DNA of 22,536 nucleotides from a virus. The notes below the pieces were generated by a model. That model ran no database searches and was not told the DNA's origin. It saw only the letters and a program-made list of their open reading frames with translations. This document shows, one piece after another, positions 493 to 21,698 of this stretch. Position 1 is the first letter of the stretch, and each line of letters begins with the position of its first letter. Made by a program: the position numbers and the translations under genes. The DNA lies in the IMG/VR virus record IMGVR_UViG_3300010354_000727, positions 1-22,536 of that record; one strand, written 5' to 3'.

Positions 493-725
493 CCCCATCT
501 AAGACAGAAATATGTAGCGTCTTTTTCGCTTAGATCAGCAACAATTTTATAACGATAATACCAACTTTGAAAATTGTCGGATTTGCACCAGACTGGGTCA
601 GTCAAAGAATTTTGCATGACCCATTGGCCAGCTTCGGTTTGTTGCCATTTCCAAATTGGTTCCGCAGCATAAATTTCAGGATCGTCGACATCACCGATAC
701 TAAATTCGTAAACCACTACCTTCAT
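489..725 (-). CDS. Conserved small hypothetical protein, 78 aa
   Basis: The 78-residue protein starts at an ATG that overlaps the thyX stop (ATGA), so it is probably translated by coupling to thyX. It is rich in Trp and Tyr (IWKWQQ, SWYYRY, CLRWG) with two cysteines, and has no signal peptide or membrane segment. The aromatic, acidic composition suggests a small compact beta-type protein, but I do not recognise the family. It is the last gene of the minus-strand block, and its TAA overlaps the TAA of the converging structural gene, with no visible hairpin terminator between them. Confidence 0.7.
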   Translation of the reverse strand: MKVVVYEFSIGDVDDPEIYAAEPIWKWQQTEAGQWVMQNSLTDPVWCKSDNFQSWYYRYKIVADLSEKDATYFCLRWG

Positions 726-1405
726 TCTTGAACATACTCTTTAGCCATTGGAAAAATAGCACTAATGGCCTCTGCACAAGCTCTAGCAACTTCCATATGT
801 TCTTTTTGTGTACCGTTTCCGCTACGAAGTTCAATAAAATGAATCCAACTTCTTAGAGTTCCATTCATATACAAACGACTTTCAATTAAGCCTTCGGGCA
901 ATACTGCTCGTGCCTGTTCTTTAGCGATACCTTTACTGATAGCCCATTCGTATGCATTTTTAGCTTCTGAAATAACTCGTGTTTGCATCATTTCCCATTG
1001 ATAGGAAATCTGTCTTTCAGTGTCAATATTAAGATCTAAAGGAACACTATTTTGTCGATTTTTAGTGTCCTGTAAACGAGCTTCTCTAGTTGTGAACTTT
1101 AGATCTTTAACTGGATCGGCATACCGTTGACTGAATTCTTGAAAACTGAAACTACGATGGCGAAGAATTTGGCGAGCGATATCTCTAGTAGTTTCAATTT
1201 CCATACATGCTGATACCATTTCTAAAGGAGACCAATGTGCATGTTTAACTAGATATCGAATTAATTTTTCGCTAGTCTCGGTATTAAATTGATTACTGGG
1301 ATTACTAACACGAGCACAGTACGCGATCAATTCTTGTGCATCGTCGATACCTTTATTCAAAAAGTCTGAAGTAGGCTGTGAGTATGATACAAGTTTTACT
1401 TTCAT
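722..1405 (-). CDS. thyX: Flavin-dependent thymidylate synthase ThyX
   Basis: ThyX methylates dUMP to dTMP using methylenetetrahydrofolate, FAD and NADPH. The 227-residue length is normal for the family. The signature RHR-x7-S is present (R82 H83 R84 to S92), followed by QRY, as in the FAD- and dUMP-binding loop. The C-terminal part carries the expected helical segment with 'LPEGL' and 'NGTLRSWIHFIELR'. The start is the ATG overlapping the stop of the upstream gene (ATGA), and its own stop overlaps the next gene in the same way. Phage ThyX enzymes supply dTMP for genome replication. There is no sign of truncation. Confidence 0.97.
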   Translation of the reverse strand: MKVKLVSYSQPTSDFLNKGIDDAQELIAYCARVSNPSNQFNTETSEKLIRYLVKHAHWSPLEMVSACMEIETTRDIARQILRHRSFSFQEFSQRYADPVKDLKFTTREARLQDTKNRQNSVPLDLNIDTERQISYQWEMMQTRVISEAKNAYEWAISKGIAKEQARAVLPEGLIESRLYMNGTLRSWIHFIELRSGNGTQKEHMEVARACAEAISAIFPMAKEYVQE

Positions 1406-11896: not shown

Positions 11897-12736
11897 TCAA
11901 GTCCCCCAAGCGTTCTTAAACAAAGGAACCTGAAGACGATCGCTATATCTGTAACCTAATTTCATAGCCAAATCGGCCACTTGTCGATTGTGCATACTGT
12001 AGACATTTTCCACTCCGCCCACAGGCATTAAATAAACAGGGCCACGGAATCCCGAACTTCGATATGCAGCTACCGCATCTTGTATTTCTTCGGTGTCGCT
12101 ATCGCCGGTAACAACAAACTTAAGATAAGTGTAACCTACTAATTCATAGTCACAGATGATATCGGGTTTAATAGCATCTTCCCATCGCTCTCCGCTAACA
12201 CTTAATTTTGGACTGACACTGAATGTAATTTCGGTAATAGTAGTGTCATTGTGCAGATAATTAAAAAAGTCGTCGGTGAGATCTTGGGTACCATTGGTCT
12301 CAAAAGTTAACTCTTTAAGAGATCGCATTTTAGGATGATCAAGTAATTTTGGATAACTACGCTGCCATCCTAACAATGGCTCTCCTCCAGTAATAACTAG
12401 GTGTTCGTCTTGCCATTCTTTGTTTGGGAGGAGATCAACAATGGCTTCTGCAAGCCCGTCCGTTGTAATAACCGGTGAAAGGTCTTTAAACCTAGGATCC
12501 CAACTAGCGTAAGAATCGCAACCGGTACTAACAAGTGGTAAATCTTTATATTGCTTAAACTCTGAGATACGAGCAGCCACCAGGTCTCGTTCATTTGATA
12601 ATTCTCCTTTTGGCATTCCGAAGCCACTACAGGTAAAGTTACAACCAAAGGTGCGTAGAAATACACTGGGTACTCCCATATATCGACCTTCGCCTTGAAT
12701 TGAATAGAATAGTTCTGAAACTTTGATTTTGCTCAT
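11897..12736 (-). CDS. queE: Radical-SAM 7-carboxy-7-deazaguanine synthase QueE, with inserted cluster loop
   Basis: QueE converts 6-carboxytetrahydropterin to 7-carboxy-7-deazaguanine. Family marks are the N-terminal 'FYSIQGEGRYMGVPSVFLRT', the SAM-binding 'TGGEP' (116-120) and 'FETNGT'. The cluster loop is unusual. C32 and C36 are in the normal CxxxC, but position 39 is Phe. The segment that normally follows as 'CDS-aromatic-W-D' appears instead at C73 ('GCDSYASWDP'), giving CX3CX36C. The enzyme is about 279 residues, longer than many QueE proteins, because of this insert. The ATG at 12736 overlaps the stop of the 71-aa gene (ATGA). Together with FolE and QueD it covers most of preQ0 synthesis. 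Function is likely retained if C73 is the third ligand. Confidence 0.92.
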   Translation of the reverse strand: MSKIKVSELFYSIQGEGRYMGVPSVFLRTFGCNFTCSGFGMPKGELSNERDLVAARISEFKQYKDLPLVSTGCDSYASWDPRFKDLSPVITTDGLAEAIVDLLPNKEWQDEHLVITGGEPLLGWQRSYPKLLDHPKMRSLKELTFETNGTQDLTDDFFNYLHNDTTITEITFSVSPKLSVSGERWEDAIKPDIICDYELVGYTYLKFVVTGDSDTEEIQDAVAAYRSSGFRGPVYLMPVGGVENVYSMHNRQVADLAMKLGYRYSDRLQVPLFKNAWGT

Positions 12737-13332: not shown

Positions 13333-13977
13333 TCAATTACTGGATTTAAGAATATTTTCGTTTTCGGTATTCTTTTGCAATCGCGATTGCAATCGATTTA
13401 GCAGTAGTCCATATGCCGGAAGAATAACTAGTAAACTAACTAGAATCTTGCTAATACTGTTGTTAGTAGCCACTATGTGCCAATTAGCAGCCATGAACTC
13501 ATTGGCACCTTTATAAAATGCAGTAAAGAAGAATGCATAGGTATCAATAAATGTACTAACAATAGCACTTAATCCTGGAGCTATCCACCAGGTGGCATAC
13601 TTTTCTCTTAGGTATTGAAACACATAAACATCAAGAAGGTTGCTAACAAAGTAAGCCACACCCGACCCTAGACCAATTCGAATAGCTACCGAATCTGGTG
13701 CACCCCCTAGCTTAACTACTAGCATACTAACTAGGATAGCTGGAATGAATGCTAGTGTGATAACTGCTCGTCCTGTTTCTTTCCCTAGTAGACGAACTGT
13801 AAGGTCGGTAAGAACAACTACCAACGGAAAAGTAAATGCTGCCAAAGCCAACGGGTGGCCAAAGATATTCATTTTAAATTGCACAAGATAATTGCTGACA
13901 GCAATGATAATAATGTGCATAATCATTAGTTTATACGCCGTTGACCGATCTACACCATTTAAGATTTTGCTTAACAT
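13333..13977 (-). CDS. yhhQ: YhhQ-type queuosine-precursor (preQ0/preQ1) transporter
   Basis: The 214-residue polytopic inner-membrane protein has about six hydrophobic segments. It matches the YhhQ/VUT family closely as I recall E. coli YhhQ: 'SNYLVQF..NIFGHPL..AAF', 'TFPLVVVLTDLTVRLLG', 'WWIAPGLSAIVSTFIDTYAF' (the Asp-Thr-x-Ala-Phe motif) and 'LVILPAYGLLLNRL'. The family imports preQ0 and preQ1 for queuosine salvage. AGGGAGAAAAAT precedes the ATG at 13977. It lies between queD (upstream) and queE (next unit), so the phage appears to combine import with de novo synthesis. No missing segment is visible. Confidence 0.93.
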   Translation of the reverse strand: MLSKILNGVDRSTAYKLMIMHIIIIAVSNYLVQFKMNIFGHPLALAAFTFPLVVVLTDLTVRLLGKETGRAVITLAFIPAILVSMLVVKLGGAPDSVAIRIGLGSGVAYFVSNLLDVYVFQYLREKYATWWIAPGLSAIVSTFIDTYAFFFTAFYKGANEFMAANWHIVATNNSISKILVSLLVILPAYGLLLNRLQSRLQKNTENENILKSSN

Positions 13978-14021: not shown

Positions 14022-14534
14022 TTACTCGAATCCCTCAAAAAGGTCCTCGTTCCACTCTCTATGGCCCTCTCGGAAAGCCATATTGGATTGTGTTTCTCTG
14101 ACTTCTACTCTGAAGCACCAAAGACGAGCTGCCTCTCCGGGGCCCCACAGATCCGGAATATAAACTCCATTGACATACTTGTATAGCATATCGGCTAGAC
14201 TTTCACATCCCAGTCGAGGTAATATTGTAAGTTTGGCTAGTTTTCTTTTTTGTAGTTCCAAGAACATATCAAATTCCGGATCGTCTTCTGCTACTAACAG
14301 TGTATGATCGAATTTATCTTCAAGGAAATGTTTAAGTTCTTTAAGACCACCGTAGTCAGCAGCCCAATTTCGTACATCGAGATCATTAGTACCAAAATAA
14401 AATTTCATCGAAAAACTATAACCATGAATCATATTACAATGACTATCGGCACGCCACTGTCTGTATGCACACGGAAAAGCATCATGATATTCTTTGGTAC
14501 TGACATATTTGTAAGTTACTGGTTGATTCGCCAT
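14022..14534 (-). CDS. queD: 6-carboxy-tetrahydropterin synthase QueD (PTPS family)
   Basis: QueD converts dihydroneopterin triphosphate to 6-carboxytetrahydropterin. The 170-residue protein shows the catalytic Cys and zinc-site region C33-x3-H37 in 'HCNMIHGYSFSMKFYF' (the usual HGH is HGY here), an Asp-His pair D76-H77 in 'KFDHTLL' ahead of the usual Leu-x-Asn region, E111 in 'GCESLADMLYKYV' and the pterin-anchoring Glu in 'VEVRETQSNMAF' (E147). The 'RQWRADSHC..IHGYS' form resembles that of T4-like cyanophage QueD. AAAGGAGG lies about nine bases before the ATG at 14534. The adjacent downstream gene is the YhhQ transporter. Confidence 0.9.
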   Translation of the reverse strand: MANQPVTYKYVSTKEYHDAFPCAYRQWRADSHCNMIHGYSFSMKFYFGTNDLDVRNWAADYGGLKELKHFLEDKFDHTLLVAEDDPEFDMFLELQKRKLAKLTILPRLGCESLADMLYKYVNGVYIPDLWGPGEAARLWCFRVEVRETQSNMAFREGHREWNEDLFEGFE

Positions 14535-14930: not shown

Positions 14931-15129
14931 TTAATATTTCAACCACTTGTTCTAGAGATTCACTGACTTCCCAAGTACCATGGGGTGGACAAAAAATAAA
15001 AGTTTTATTTTCAATAATACCTGCATCGTTAGTAACAAATTGACTATGAATAGTGGCAATAAGATCTTTTTTGATAGCAATTTTACTGCCTCTAAAAGAG
15101 TCCACTGCATTAGTTAGTGTTATAAACAT
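14911..15129 (-). CDS. Hypothetical protein, 72 aa (start revised)
   Basis: An in-frame ATG at 15162 would add eleven residues that overlap the cupin gene more deeply. The ATG at 15129 has AAGGA five bases ahead and is preferred. The protein reads 'MFITLTNAVDSFRGSKIAIK', then strands ('NKTFIFCPPHGTWEV') and a C-terminal helix ('SLEQVVEILNVVH'). It lies between the cupin gene and the 101-aa gene, both overlapping it. No family recognised. Confidence 0.65.
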   Translation of the reverse strand: MFITLTNAVDSFRGSKIAIKKDLIATIHSQFVTNDAGIIENKTFIFCPPHGTWEVSESLEQVVEILNVVHSS

Positions 15130-15601
15130 TTGATTCCTTATTAAATTTTTTTGCTCGATCATCTAAATATTTTTCGTGTTGAATCCATCGATTCTCGACA
15201 AGAAATCCCCAATCTCTTTGCTGTGGTCCAGGAATAAACAGGGACCAGCATTCAACATCAGGATCAAGTTCAATACGATGAAAACTTTTTGCACTACAGG
15301 TTCGAAAACTTCCGGGACCTCTCCAAACACAAACTTCGTTGGTTTTTTCGCCGAGACTGTTAAATTGAGGAATCCATTCCCAGTAGCCTCCTTTAAGGAT
15401 TAGACTAGCGTATGGCCACGGATGATCATGAACATCGTCGGGGTCCGATTTTAAAAATTTATGCAAAAAAATATTAAAAGGAAACCATTTACGATCTTTA
15501 AGAAAGATATAATACCTTTCTAAATATGGCTCGTTGTTGACACGATCCATTACGATTCTTTTTCGACCAATCTTATCCAAGAAATTTAGAATTTTTTTCA
15601 T
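15110..15601 (-). CDS. Cupin-like protein, 163 aa
   Basis: The central region 'FNIFLHKFLKSDPDDVHDHP' followed by 'YASLILKGGYWEW' has the cupin layout: metal-type His residues (H58, H60) on one strand, a Gly-Gly turn and aromatic strands, then a second His in 'SAKSFHRIEL' (H108). The C-terminal part has 'WSLFIPGPQQRDWGF'. Cupins include metal-dependent oxygenases, isomerases and binding proteins; the substrate cannot be inferred. The helical N-terminus ('KKILNFLDKIGRKRIVMDR') is basic. It sits amid folE-queD genes, so a role on a pterin or nucleoside intermediate is possible but untested. Confidence 0.75.
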   Translation of the reverse strand: MKKILNFLDKIGRKRIVMDRVNNEPYLERYYIFLKDRKWFPFNIFLHKFLKSDPDDVHDHPWPYASLILKGGYWEWIPQFNSLGEKTNEVCVWRGPGSFRTCSAKSFHRIELDPDVECWSLFIPGPQQRDWGFLVENRWIQHEKYLDDRAKKFNKESNVYNTN

Positions 15602-17007: not shown

Positions 17008-17703
17008 TTAACGAGGTGCCCAATCTTGTTGCAATTTGATATTGTCAAAAAATTCTTTTTTAGTTCCTGGGTCGTTTTTAAAAGACCCTTTCAAAACTGT
17101 AGTTTGAGTTAAACTAGAATGTGCCATAATACCTCGATTTTCACAACAGCCGTGAGTGGCCTGAATGTAAACGCCAAGATCTTTGGCCCCGGTTGCATGT
17201 TGAATTTCTTTAGCAATATTATTTGCAAGCTCTTCTTGCAAAGTGCCTCGACGGGCACACCATTGCGCTATTCTAGTATATTTACTAAGTCCGATAAGTT
17301 TTTCTGCTGCAATAACACCAATATACGCAACACCATTGACAGGTTGGTGATGATGACTACAAACGCTATGTAATTCACTACGAACTACTAACATACCTTT
17401 ATAAGCATCTTTACTATCGTTTGGAAATGCGGTATTCGATGGCGGTGGATCATATCTTCCAGACATGATCTCATTGAAATACATTTTTGCTAGTCGTCTT
17501 GCTGTTCCTTGACTGTTGGGATCTGTTTTACGATCGATTAACAAAGTGTCTAATACTTTTTCAAATGCTTCAGTGGCTTCGTTGATTAATTTTTCTTTAT
17601 CTCCGGGTTCTAGATATTCACTGATGTTGTCATTAGCCCAAAACCTTTTACTAGTACTTTGCATTCTATCGCGAATTGCTTGTGATAAATGTTTTTCTGT
17701 CAT
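17008..17703 (-). CDS. folE: GTP cyclohydrolase I FolE
   Basis: FolE opens GTP to dihydroneopterin triphosphate, the first step to folate and 7-deazaguanines. The 231-residue protein has the core 'SVCSHHHQPVNGVAYIG' with zinc ligands C115 and H118 and catalytic-type H117, then 'KLIGLSKYTRIAQWCARR', 'LQEELANNIAKEI' and 'ATHGCCENRG' with H184 and C186, the second zinc Cys. The usual Glu after the first Cys (CEHH) is Ser here. GGAGAATAACA precedes the ATG at 17703. It heads, after galE, a run of genes leading to queD and yhhQ, so supply of QueD substrate is the likely job. Confidence 0.93.
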   Translation of the reverse strand: MTEKHLSQAIRDRMQSTSKRFWANDNISEYLEPGDKEKLINEATEAFEKVLDTLLIDRKTDPNSQGTARRLAKMYFNEIMSGRYDPPPSNTAFPNDSKDAYKGMLVVRSELHSVCSHHHQPVNGVAYIGVIAAEKLIGLSKYTRIAQWCARRGTLQEELANNIAKEIQHATGAKDLGVYIQATHGCCENRGIMAHSSLTQTTVLKGSFKNDPGTKKEFFDNIKLQQDWAPR

Positions 17704-17735: not shown

Positions 17736-18749
17736 TTAGTTGACTGTAACATATTTAGACCGAGTAGTCAAACCATTATGATTTTTTTCCCAAGTCCATG
17801 ATGTAGATATAATATTTCTAATGTCGCTATTAATTGGTCTCCAACTAGTGTGACTTTGAAATAAATCACTGTTAGCAACCAAATAGTCCGGATCTCCAAT
17901 TCTTCTTGATGCCACTACAAAATTAATTTTTTCTTCGGCGATATCGCCACAGGTTTCGATAATTTCTTTGTTACTATGCCCTTGGCCCGTTCCGAGATTA
18001 TAAGCCCGAAATTCTCCAGCATCCATAGTTTCGGCTAGACAAACTGCTTCTAAATGTGCCCGAGCAATATCGGTTACATGTAAATAATCTCTTATACAAG
18101 TTTGATCGGGTGTATTGTAATCATTGCCATAGAGTAAAAAACTCTCACCACGCCGATGTGCACTAAGAATCCTGGGAATTAAATGTGTATCGTCTTTTAC
18201 ATGACCTAAGGTTCCGTCTGGGTCGCACCCAGATGCATTAAAATACCTTAGGGCGATGCCTTTAAATTTATGTGCATGACAATGATCTTGAATAATTCTT
18301 TCGCAAAATAATTTACTTTGCCCATATGGACTAATCGGTGATTGCAAATCTGTTTCATACAATTGACGATTAGTATTTGGGATTCCGTAAGTTGCAGCAC
18401 TACTACTGAATATAAATTTTCCTTTCCAACCATTACGAAAAAGTTTTTCTAGTAGATCATTTGTTTTGCTAGAATTATTCCAATAATAGGTGTAAGGATC
18501 TTGAATACTAGGACCAACTAAACTAGTGCCAGCACAATGTATAATGGCATCTACTTTATTGACGATTGCAGCAACAGAAGTAATTTCTACAAAGTCGTCC
18601 ATGAACAATTGATCAATGTATTTTGCTGCTTGAGGTATAGTATCTTTGTGATCAACACCGATTACTTGATAATTCGCTTCTTTAAAAATTTTGGCGGTAT
18701 GACTACCAATAAAACCCATTGCGCCGGTAATAATAACTTGATTTTTCAT
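17736..18749 (-). CDS. galE: UDP-glucose 4-epimerase-like extended SDR (GalE)
   Basis: An extended short-chain dehydrogenase with the NAD-binding GxxGxxG ('ITGAMGFIGSHTA'), the catalytic Ser region 'FSSSAATYG', the catalytic Y-x3-K in 'SPYGQSKLFCERI', 'ALRYFNASGCDPDG' and 'CIRDYLHVTDIARAH', all as in GalE. It interconverts UDP-glucose and UDP-galactose (or the N-acetyl forms) and probably feeds the glycosyltransferase encoded upstream. The annotation is 337 residues from ATG at 18749; a TTG just before (18752) is less likely. A strong promoter (18756-18784) places +1 at or next to the A of the ATG, with no Shine-Dalgarno, so a leaderless mRNA is predicted. Confidence 0.93.
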   Translation of the reverse strand: MKNQVIITGAMGFIGSHTAKIFKEANYQVIGVDHKDTIPQAAKYIDQLFMDDFVEITSVAAIVNKVDAIIHCAGTSLVGPSIQDPYTYYWNNSSKTNDLLEKLFRNGWKGKFIFSSSAATYGIPNTNRQLYETDLQSPISPYGQSKLFCERIIQDHCHAHKFKGIALRYFNASGCDPDGTLGHVKDDTHLIPRILSAHRRGESFLLYGNDYNTPDQTCIRDYLHVTDIARAHLEAVCLAETMDAGEFRAYNLGTGQGHSNKEIIETCGDIAEEKINFVVASRRIGDPDYLVANSDLFQSHTSWRPINSDIRNIISTSWTWEKNHNGLTTRSKYVTVN

Positions 18750-18755
18750 CAAAGA

Positions 18756-18784
18756 AGTATAACGGAAGACAAATAAAAAAGCAA
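18756..18784 (-). promoter_or_regulatory. Sigma70-type promoter for galE
   Basis: Minus strand TTGCTT (18779-18784), 17 bases, TATACT (18756-18761). The -35 box is part of the 3' arm and T-run of the preceding terminator. The predicted +1 is about 18749, the first base of the galE ATG. Confidence 0.7.
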
Positions 18785-18797
18785 CCTTGCGGTTGCT
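18774..18797 (-). terminator. Strong intrinsic terminator after the His-rich protein gene
   Basis: A 7-bp stem AGCAACC/GGTTGCT (18780-18786 with 18791-18797) with a GCAA tetraloop on the minus strand, followed directly by a run of T. Textbook form. Confidence 0.9.
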
Positions 18798-18802
18798 CTA
18801 AA

Positions 18803-19245: not shown

Positions 19246-20430
19246 TTAGTATTTAGCCGGGGCAGTATGTTTTCGGTAATCATTGCCTACTCTTAGCCAA
19301 TTTTCTCCTTTGCCTTCGAGTATGTCAACGATTCGATCAATAGTTCCATCGGTCCAATCGCTGATTTGTCCTAAATTAGGATGGGGTCCTGTTAACAAAG
19401 ACATCAATTTAGATAAGGCATCCTCGATACTCCAAGGAATATACAATCGTTTATGATCGTTTGCAAAAGTTTCAGGAAAACTGCGATAGGCAGGATAAAG
19501 CACATTACATCCAAGAGTATCAGCTTCGGAAACGGTATTAGAGACCCAATCTTGTAAAGCACAATTAAACAGTACACGAGTATCGTTGAGTAAAGAATAG
19601 TAATCGTTTTTATCAAGATCTTCGTAAATAACAAGTTTTCCTTCCTGTTGTAATCTACGAGTACGATTCATATAACTGTTATTATTAGATCGAAGTTTAC
19701 TACCGCTAAAAACAGCAAACTCAATTTTTCGGTAACCATTAGAGTAACGACGGAACCATTCCTCAATGAGATCCATAAAAAAGTCTGGTTGTTTTTCTTG
19801 ATCCCATCGTGCGGCGAATCCTACTCTCCATGCTCTATCAGAAAATGGTTTTAATTCGCCGGGAACTCGACTTCTAACTTCTTCCTTGCCAAATGCTAGT
19901 CCACTAATGTTATAAATAGGAGCTTGCCAACCGGCAACTTTCATGTGCATAACCATTTCTTCATTAGTAGCAAGGATACCGTCTACGAACGAGTCCACCA
20001 TTTTTTCATAGTGGCCCATCCACCGAGACATACCCCAAACATGAACAAAATCATCTGGATCAATGGTTTGAGCAAGACAACGAACAAACACCCGAGGACG
20101 ATAAGCAGGATCGACTTGATTGAGAATATAAGGAATGCTCTCGATTCCGGGCTGAAACATGTCTTCGAAATAGATAACATCTTCATTAGTAACCTGACCT
20201 TCTTTCATAAATCGAATCAAGTTCATGATTTGACTCATACCGAAATAACCGCGACCGTGTGCATCTAATACCTGACCAGTGCTGATTTGTTGATCAGTGG
20301 TCAGTGTAGTTCCAGGAACATCGATCCAGGTAATACCACGGCGTTCAAATACACGACGATTCCAATCAGTTAGTTGTAGAGTGTATCGAGCCTTGTAAGG
20401 CTCTAACCCCATATAAAATAGTTTACGCAT
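19246..20430 (-). CDS. Glycosyltransferase, family-1/GT-B-like, 394 aa
   Basis: The C-terminal half shows the GT-B donor-domain pattern: 'WRVGFAARWDQEKQPDFFMD' at the domain start, a conserved-type 'KLVIYEDLDKNDYYSLLNDT' loop, and 'WVSNTVSEADTLGCNVLYPA' in the place of the family 'E-x7-E' nucleotide-sugar region. The N-terminal half carries 'YFEDMFQPGIESIPYIL' and a linker with 'DGILATNEEMVMHMK'. It likely transfers a sugar to phage DNA, a virion protein or a host glycan; GalE may supply UDP-galactose. The ATG at 20430 overlaps the stop of the preceding gene. Similar enzymes are frequent in T4-like cyanophages. The acceptor is unknown. Confidence 0.85.
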   Translation of the reverse strand: MRKLFYMGLEPYKARYTLQLTDWNRRVFERRGITWIDVPGTTLTTDQQISTGQVLDAHGRGYFGMSQIMNLIRFMKEGQVTNEDVIYFEDMFQPGIESIPYILNQVDPAYRPRVFVRCLAQTIDPDDFVHVWGMSRWMGHYEKMVDSFVDGILATNEEMVMHMKVAGWQAPIYNISGLAFGKEEVRSRVPGELKPFSDRAWRVGFAARWDQEKQPDFFMDLIEEWFRRYSNGYRKIEFAVFSGSKLRSNNNSYMNRTRRLQQEGKLVIYEDLDKNDYYSLLNDTRVLFNCALQDWVSNTVSEADTLGCNVLYPAYRSFPETFANDHKRLYIPWSIEDALSKLMSLLTGPHPNLGQISDWTDGTIDRIVDILEGKGENWLRVGNDYRKHTAPAKY

Positions 20431-20681: not shown

Positions 20682-21143
20682 TTAGATTTTAAGTTGTTGA
20701 AGTGGTTTAGTGGTATTATAGTAAATTGTGGCGCCGTTCTCACCGTCTTCGGAAACAGTGATCTCAACATCACGATCTGGATAACGATTAGAGATTTGAT
20801 CGTATAGATCGTCACTAATCATTTCGCAGCTTTTATAATCTAACGACAAAACACCTTGTGCGCCAGAATACAATCCTTCGAGCCATCGTTTAAATTGAAT
20901 GAATTCGATGTCTCGATCATTATGCCAAACTTGAATAGCAACAGTGAAATGAAAAATATGCCTATGAGGGTAAGCCAAAAACGAAACATCATAAATGTCA
21001 CCTGTTTTAAGAGCCGGATCTTGATCGGCTGCTGGGTATTTATGAATACCCTCCTTCTCGAAGGTAATCCAGATCATTCGTTTGGCTTGATCCTTAATAC
21101 GAGATTGTTTTTCCATTAGTGCTTGATTGTGTTGTTCTATCAT
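20682..21143 (-). CDS. Divergent PTPS/QueD-like T-fold protein, 153 aa
   Basis: I read this as a remote 6-pyruvoyltetrahydropterin-synthase relative. The order matches the T-fold: 'ITFEKEGIHKYPA' (H34, like the first zinc His), 'LAYPHRHIFHFTVAIQV' (H60, H62, like HGH before the first long strand), 'DIEFIQFKRWLEGLY' (like 'vvDFgdLK'), 'CEMISDDLYDQI' (E107, like the 'sEnlA' helix) and 'VEITVSEDGENGATIYY' (E132, like the pterin-anchoring Glu). The catalytic Cys and the Asp-His pair of QueD are not seen, so it may bind a pterin without QueD chemistry. No Shine-Dalgarno precedes the ATG. The alternative is an unrelated conserved phage protein. The homology call is inference. Confidence 0.55.
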   Translation of the reverse strand: MIEQHNQALMEKQSRIKDQAKRMIWITFEKEGIHKYPAADQDPALKTGDIYDVSFLAYPHRHIFHFTVAIQVWHNDRDIEFIQFKRWLEGLYSGAQGVLSLDYKSCEMISDDLYDQISNRYPDRDVEITVSEDGENGATIYYNTTKPLQQLKI

Positions 21144-21188: not shown

Positions 21189-21698
21189 TTAAATTTCTCG
21201 ATCTTTGTCATAATCGTGCCAAGGAGTAAAGACCATATCTCTTTTCATTAATGTGTGTAAGCTATGACACCAAACCCCGGGGTTAGTACCTTTAAATTTT
21301 ATATCATCAAGTTTAATTGTAGCATTGTATCCTAACAGTTGTATATAGGGCAATTTTACCGATATCATTGGAATAAAATTATGAAATTCAGTTAAACCAC
21401 TTTCATGTAAACCTTCGACGCAATCAACCGGGATATCTAGAGTACATAGATATTCTCGTTCAAGAAAGTATATGATCATGTCTTCCCATTCCCGCCATCC
21501 TTTGGCATCGTTGGTTTCTAACTTAGGAAAACTCATATTTGCACCAAAATAGATATGTTCGGCACCATTTAATTTTGCTGAAATATCGTTTACATTTTGT
21601 ACTCCTACTACAAACAAAGTTTTAAGACCTTGTGCAGGGGAGCATTCTACTTCAACGCCGTTGAAGAATTGTAAACCGCTATTCGGATCTCTGTTCAT
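21189..21698 (-). CDS. Hypothetical protein, 169 aa
   Basis: A mixed alpha/beta soluble protein: 'LQFFNGVEVECSPAQGLKTL' at the N-terminus, 'AEHIYFGANMSFPKLETNDA' and 'REWEDMIIYFLEREYLCTLD' in the middle, then 'MISVKLPYIQLLGYNATIKL' and a polar tail. The first strand with 'GVEVECSPAQG' and the repeating strand-helix order suggest a compact enzyme-like domain, but no motif is secure. AGAGG precedes the ATG at 21698. It overlaps the preceding gene and lies 45 bases before the PTPS-like gene. Confidence 0.7.
   Translation of the reverse strand: MNRDPNSGLQFFNGVEVECSPAQGLKTLFVVGVQNVNDISAKLNGAEHIYFGANMSFPKLETNDAKGWREWEDMIIYFLEREYLCTLDIPVDCVEGLHESGLTEFHNFIPMISVKLPYIQLLGYNATIKLDDIKFKGTNPGVWCHSLHTLMKRDMVFTPWHDYDKDREI

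Follow-up and report, generated by a model that had tools for sequence, protein, structure and literature searches.

The window, that is, the whole analyzed stretch of 22,536 nucleotides of IMG/VR virus record IMGVR_UViG_3300010354_000727, encodes FolE, QueD and QueE, a DpdA-like transglycosylase truncated by the contig end, a predicted glycosyltransferase and, between the latter two, a protein of 153 amino acids that we denote the T-fold protein after its predicted fold (Table 1). Its ORF begins with ATG, and the boundaries coincide exactly with those given in an earlier interpretation made from the letters only (hereafter, the sequence-only reading). The neighborhoods of 221 T-fold genes, with limited flanks, were compared.

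Table 1. Features of the window, with counts among the 221 compared loci where available
Feature	Coordinates	Strand	Basis and occurrence
DpdA-like (TGT-fold) transglycosylase, C-terminal part, cut by contig end	22014..22535	-	HMM E 5.6e-58 to PA5oct-type DpdA family
ORF169, conserved neighbor of unknown function	21189..21698	-	121/221 loci
T-fold protein (QueD/PTPS paralog), 153 aa	20682..21143	-	invariant residues, AlphaFold2, Foldseek
Small conserved downstream ORF, 77 aa	20423..20656	-	148/221 loci, always <=1.5 kb downstream
GT-B-like glycosyltransferase (LEP/LE..RYT motif family)	19246..20430	-	194/221 loci; weak Pfam glycosyltransferase matches
Terminator-like hairpin, between T-fold/glycosyltransferase block and galE-folE	18778..18799	-	consensus match only
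GalE-like NAD-dependent nucleotide-sugar epimerase	17736..18752	-	Pfam Epimerase 9.7e-44; 65/221 loci
FolE, GTP cyclohydrolase I	17008..17703	-	Pfam 1e-38
Cysteine-dioxygenase/cupin-like protein	15110..15601	-	PHROG 4786; in 17 loci of the T-fold neighborhood
QueD, Cys33, Asp76-His77 and Glu147 kept	14022..14534	-	Pfam PTPS 9.8e-16, PHROG 2389, alignment A3
YhhQ/VUT-family transporter	13333..13977	-	Pfam Vut_1 1.4e-21
QueE, CDG synthase	11897..12736	-	PHROG 2076 4.4e-51
ThyX-like thymidylate synthase	722..1405	-	RHR...S.RY motif, by eye only

Two of the neighbors are of some note in themselves. ORF169 represents a family of about 170 aa with an NPGVWCHSLH motif, whose gene separates dpdA from the T-fold gene in 121 loci; in 46 of these, an MDR dehydrogenase gene is present as well. 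The VUT/YhhQ family is known for queuosine-precursor salvage; its gene was found in just 6 of the 221 T-fold loci, in a phage group that lacks QueC. The sequence-only reading had placed the T-fold gene about 6 kb from queD and in another transcript: the distance stands, the two genes are on the same strand, and the terminator-like hairpin lies between them.

The T-fold protein matches PHROG 17812, a family of unknown function (E=4.9e-34). Among the IMG/VR pattern matches listed, 598 of 599 encode relatives, and family members were detected in 26 isolated-phage records, which span Pseudomonas PA5oct-like jumbo phages, Sinorhizobium and Rhizobium phages, Acidovorax phage ACP17, Xanthomonas phage X1, and phages of Vibrio, Aeromonas, Synechococcus, Cellulophaga and Chryseobacterium. 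Thus, the ORF is not a chance one. One scan of a genome collection retrieved seven T-fold loci, all on contigs of metagenome bins, which we read as binned viral DNA; a cellular origin was therefore rejected, and the family appears to be viral and restricted to phages. No Pfam or NCBIfam match was obtained for the window protein at E<=1, and 3 of the 81 aligned homologs gave weak matches to PF01242 (PTPS; best E 0.041). Searches of PDB sequences with the single protein and with the family profile returned chance matches only, so that sequence alone does not place the T-fold protein.

Predicted fold and relation to QueD

The AlphaFold2 model of the protein (pLDDT 93.2) has the element order beta-beta-alpha-alpha-beta-beta, with strands at residues 23-34, 60-71, 126-132 and 136-142, and helices at 78-90 and 106-120. 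In the Foldseek search against PDB, the top matches were PTPS/QueD proteins (Pyrococcus horikoshii 2dj6, E 1.3e-4; Escherichia coli QueD 4ntk, E 5e-4; probability 1.00), and the others among the 50 listed were QueF-like proteins, dihydroneopterin aldolases (DHNA), GTP cyclohydrolases and one uncharacterized chain. The TM-scores of 0.5-0.7 are moderate, which is what a distant paralog with an additional N-terminal helix would be expected to give. The protein thus has the topology of the T-fold superfamily (PTPS/QueD/FolE/QueF/DHNA). The sequence-only reading had proposed kinship with PTPS and had called for structure prediction followed by a fold search; both bear out this kinship, with PTPS/QueD as the best solved matches.

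In alignment A1, which includes 81 T-fold sequences with identity to the window protein down to 33%, the invariant residues are E31, G32, H34, A39, F55, L56, H60, R61, H62 and F64 in the first half, and H74, R77, E80, S105, C106, E107, M108, L113, R124, E132, D133 and E135 in the second half. H34, H60 and H62, which the sequence-only reading had singled out as a possible His triad, are each present in 81/81 sequences and constitute a putative metal triad, with the HxH motif in register with the HGY/HGH motif of QueD. The Glu that had been likened to the pterin anchor, E132, is equally invariant (81/81) and, in the profile alignment, is in register with Glu147 of the phage QueD, as a pterin-anchoring Glu should be.

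Profile-profile comparison of the T-fold family with the phage QueD extends nearly end to end and in register (P=1.3e-4), such that S105-C106-E107 falls on G-C-E of QueD, and the strand with SEDGENGA falls on the QueD strand that carries the invariant Glu147. The P values for FolE (0.23) and QueF (0.029) are much worse, and kinship with either was rejected on these grounds. QueF and the QueF-like archaeosine synthase (5k0p/5jyx) share the T-fold and the pathway with the window protein and are among its structure matches, and QueF also has an invariant Cys. However, C106 is located in the second helix region rather than in the place of the QueF Cys; the QueF motif, E(S/L)K(S/A)hK(L/Y)(Y/F/W), is half matched; and these phages encode no QueC to supply preQ0.

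Phage QueD matches solved QueD proteins and retains the catalytic residues, with Cys33 and Asp76-His77 invariant in its alignment. In the T-fold family, by contrast, the position of the QueD catalytic Cys (four residues before H60; in the phage QueD, the Cys precedes His37) is occupied by Leu56 in 81/81 sequences, and the segment matching D76-H77 is short or missing in the profile alignment, in agreement with the sequence-only reading, which had noted the lack of both the Cys and the Asp-His pair. The protein therefore cannot use the QueD mechanism and, although it belongs to the same superfamily, was rejected as a QueD. Instead, it has another set of potential ligands and catalysts, all of them invariant, with H74, R77, E80 and C106 as extra residues compared to QueD/PTPS. 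As a side observation, the phage QueD subfamily (alignment A3) carries HGY where the canonical QueD motif is HGH; one Zn ligand of this subfamily seems to be replaced.

Genomic company of the T-fold gene

FolE, QueD and QueE make 7-carboxy-7-deazaguanine (CDG) (PMC6884629, PMC13329287). We analyzed 33 whole records with the T-fold gene (11 isolates and 22 contigs >=84 kb), and FolE and QueE are present in all 33; within the limited flanks of the 221 loci, FolE, QueE and QueD were detected in at least 143, 104 and 65 cases, respectively. A separate PTPS-family QueD, with the catalytic residues kept in the aligned examples, is encoded in 24 of the 33 records but was not found in the other 9, such as Vibrio phage D479, which has FolE, QueE and the T-fold protein; for such phages, the host may supply QueD. 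The co-occurrence with queD, which the sequence-only reading had suggested checking, is thus partial, and its proposal that the protein is a partner of QueD is, for an obligate partner, not supported in view of these nine records.

QueC takes CDG to preQ0. No full-length QueC was detected in any of the 33 T-fold records, while two QueC controls gave matches, and none was found in the flanks of the 221 loci. Partial QueC-like matches in T-fold records (32.8 bits in W07, 22.9 bits in G009, others weaker) were rejected because they cover only part of the model and because phage KVP40, which has a full QueC, gives an additional partial match of comparable strength (36 bits). Conversely, nine QueE-encoding phages of other clades (HVTV-1, Dp-1, immuto, phi38:2, KVP40, Peetri, 2.275.O, GR7B and Quesadilla) all yielded a QueC-family match above the cut-off, the weakest being those of immuto and Peetri, and none of the nine has the T-fold gene. 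Nor was the T-fold gene found in 47 virus contigs retrieved with two QueC queries, 44 of which encode QueE, whereas 3/3 positive controls were detected. In total, the T-fold gene is present in none of 56 QueC-bearing phage records (53 with QueE), a count in which lineages are phylogenetically linked and some contigs may be incomplete. The two genes are mutually exclusive in all records tested, with hosts as diverse as Pseudomonas, Bacteroidota and cyanobacteria, and the T-fold protein is the sole factor whose presence parallels the loss of QueC. By genome logic, the two proteins share the same pathway position, the fate of the QueE product, but the T-fold protein is unrelated in fold to QueC (PF06508).

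A transglycosylase family is represented in at least 188 of the 221 loci, in 138 of these within 1.5 kb of the T-fold gene. Among the 33 whole records, 24 encode the PA5oct type; other types that accompany the T-fold gene are the X1/ACP17/BUCT-ZZ01 type and the phiST/MA9V-3 type, the latter with kinship to the Dp-1 protein annotated as a queuine transferase. Altogether, some DpdA type was identified in 30/33 records, the exceptions being the isolates RHph_I1_18, Ahp1 and Bakedbeans. The PA5oct-type family, of which the window encodes the C-terminal part only, was modeled on a homolog (L053; pLDDT 88.7), and the top 20 PDB matches of this model in Foldseek are TGT. D110, D155 and D303 are invariant, and the DSGGFQ, LDIP and SFDCASPF motifs contain invariant Asp, so that the family combines a TGT-like TIM barrel with conserved Asp. 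The PA5oct member gave no Pfam or PHROG match and the family sequence no PDB match, and the family is placed by structure instead. Proteins of this type, such as that of PA5oct itself (L082, 6284-7906) and its relatives, are about 520 aa long and very common in large phages; they probably form an undescribed or unlisted DpdA subfamily. The FolE-QueD-QueE-transglycosylase logic resembles that of the DpdA phage systems of dG+/preQ0 DNA modification (Hutinet et al. 2019, PMC6884629), from which the T-fold phages differ in that QueC is absent, whereas the T-fold protein and a glycosyltransferase are added and the TGT family matches neither Pfam nor PHROG.

The glycosyltransferase is the most constant neighbor, present in at least 194 of the 221 loci with limited flanks, in 166 within 1.5 kb. 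It adjoins the T-fold gene in 27 of the 33 whole records compared to 0 of 9 QueC controls, but was not found in 6 of the 11 isolate records; among the isolates, PA5oct, ACP17 and X1 encode it, and Cellulophaga phage phiST does not. Its family sequence has no match in PDB. Clustering of neighbors showed that this block also includes GalE (59 loci), a DegT-like aminotransferase (20), a cytidylyltransferase-like protein (65) and a phosphoribosyltransferase (60). An MDR dehydrogenase and a Gfo/Idh/MocA-type dehydrogenase occur as a pair in 50 of 51 cases, with the pair located between dpdA and the T-fold gene in 50 of the 221 loci (e.g., L107, 5500-7283, and L130, 5120-6917). This pair suggests that phages of this subset make unusual sugar nucleotides.

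A putative step in place of QueC

Because FolE and QueE are present in all 33 records, full-length QueC in none, and the gene accompanies several divergent DpdA types, the most likely role of the T-fold protein is to take over from QueC, with the QueE product, CDG, as its substrate, in a step that precedes DpdA. Our best guess at the reaction is decarboxylation of CDG to 7-deazaguanine, and we put at about 0.5 the probability that the protein stands in for QueC when the phage makes its 7-deazaguanine, probably through this decarboxylation. No ATP or NADPH motif was recognized in the small stand-alone domain, so that a cofactor-light reaction fits, and decarboxylation is the simplest of these.

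Under this scheme, FolE, QueD and QueE would produce CDG, which a phage without QueC could not take to preQ0. The T-fold protein, a rewired paralog of the phage's own QueD, would bind CDG instead. E107 and E132 would hold the guanine-like face, as in other T-fold enzymes, whereas a metal bound by H34, H60 and H62, together with H74 and R77, would hold the 7-carboxylate and O6. An acid, possibly C106, E80 or H74, would then protonate C7, and CO2 would leave, yielding 7-deazaguanine, which DpdA would exchange for guanine in the phage DNA.

The gene neighborhoods also admit a different product. The protein could turn CDG or a related intermediate into a C7-functionalized compound, to which the neighboring glycosyltransferase would add a sugar, giving glycosylated 7-deazaguanine DNA. 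The near-constant glycosyltransferase, absent from the nine QueC controls, speaks for this course and against decarboxylation, given that a product with a functional group fits better with it than plain 7-deazaguanine; at C7, the latter offers no evident O or N to which a sugar could be attached. The recurrence in the block of GalE, the aminotransferase, the cytidylyltransferase-like protein and the paired dehydrogenases points the same way, as does a BFVD structure match (TM 0.81, 37% identity) to a phage protein of 459 aa that carries an alcohol dehydrogenase annotation, which suggests a natural fusion. Yet, the six isolate records without this glycosyltransferase indicate that the T-fold step does not need it and that the sugar step would be an add-on, and the sugar could sit on another base. 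We regard a sugar-accepting product as possible but less probable than decarboxylation.

Kinship leaves room for an unlikely third course, in which the protein is a second QueD-type enzyme that acts on dihydroneopterin triphosphate or CPH4, providing an alternative CPH4 route or another pterin step. QueD/PTPS are its closest relatives by profile and structure, and the phages without a detectable QueD would have a place for such a role, which counts against decarboxylation. However, the invariant Leu in place of the catalytic Cys and the missing Asp-His segment argue otherwise, most of the records have a separate QueD, and redundancy with QueD would leave the exclusion of QueC unexplained. Slightly less likely again is a role without catalysis, in which the protein would bind the base and either carry CDG to DpdA or regulate the pathway, as might be imagined for a small single-domain protein encoded next to dpdA in most loci. 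The association of the T-fold gene with several divergent DpdA types speaks for a base-making step and against a protein dedicated to a single transglycosylase; the invariant His triad, along with C106, E107, E80 and R77, looks catalytic; and a carrier would not obviously replace QueC. Of the three functions that the sequence-only reading had considered, a mere pterin-binding regulator is disfavored by the same set of potentially catalytic residues, and the option of a new enzymatic reaction within the deazaguanine pathway is clearly favored by the strict company of FolE and QueE, the exclusion of QueC and the adjoining DpdA.

Cui et al. (NAR 2023) reportedly detected 7-deazaguanine and CDG in the DNA of phages and gave the name DpdL to a predicted CDG decarboxylase. 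The role predicted for DpdL, conversion of CDG to 7-deazaguanine, fits the QueC-less context described here, in which FolE and QueE are joined by a DpdA type in 30 of the 33 records. DpdL may be the T-fold family, which we consider more probable than the contrary. The study of Cui et al. (2023) is cited in PMC12783734. With CDG decarboxylation, or another conversion of CDG, as its predicted activity, PHROG 17812, a very common unannotated phage family, gains a predicted function based on structure and genome context, namely, the step that takes the place of QueC in deazaguanine phages devoid of it. In the isolates phiST, PA5oct, ACP17 and X1, the predicted base should be directly accessible to mass spectrometry of nucleosides.

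The neighboring genes further suggest that many T-fold phages decorate the new base, or something made with it, with sugar, and sugar-decorated deazaguanine DNA is predicted accordingly for these phages. The full sequence of steps, a QueC-independent branch in which the T-fold enzyme, derived from QueD, makes a new base from CDG, a divergent DpdA inserts this base, and the glycosyltransferase adds a phage-made sugar to yield sugar-hypermodified 7-deazaguanine in DNA, is tentative and somewhat more doubtful than a sugar-accepting product as such. If the link to the glycosyltransferase is real, the DNA of these phages would contain a sugar-modified guanine of a new class, which may shield them from restriction.

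Several family members occur in longer proteins. The T-fold genes of MA9V-3 (L086, 8431-9312) and Bakedbeans (L090, 8251-9402) have long N-terminal extensions, with an HNH-like part in the former and of no recognized kind in the latter. In BFVD, T-fold domains of this family are found within longer phage proteins annotated as alcohol dehydrogenase or AAA domain (A0A6J5LEZ6 and A0A8S5V119), which are possible natural fusions.
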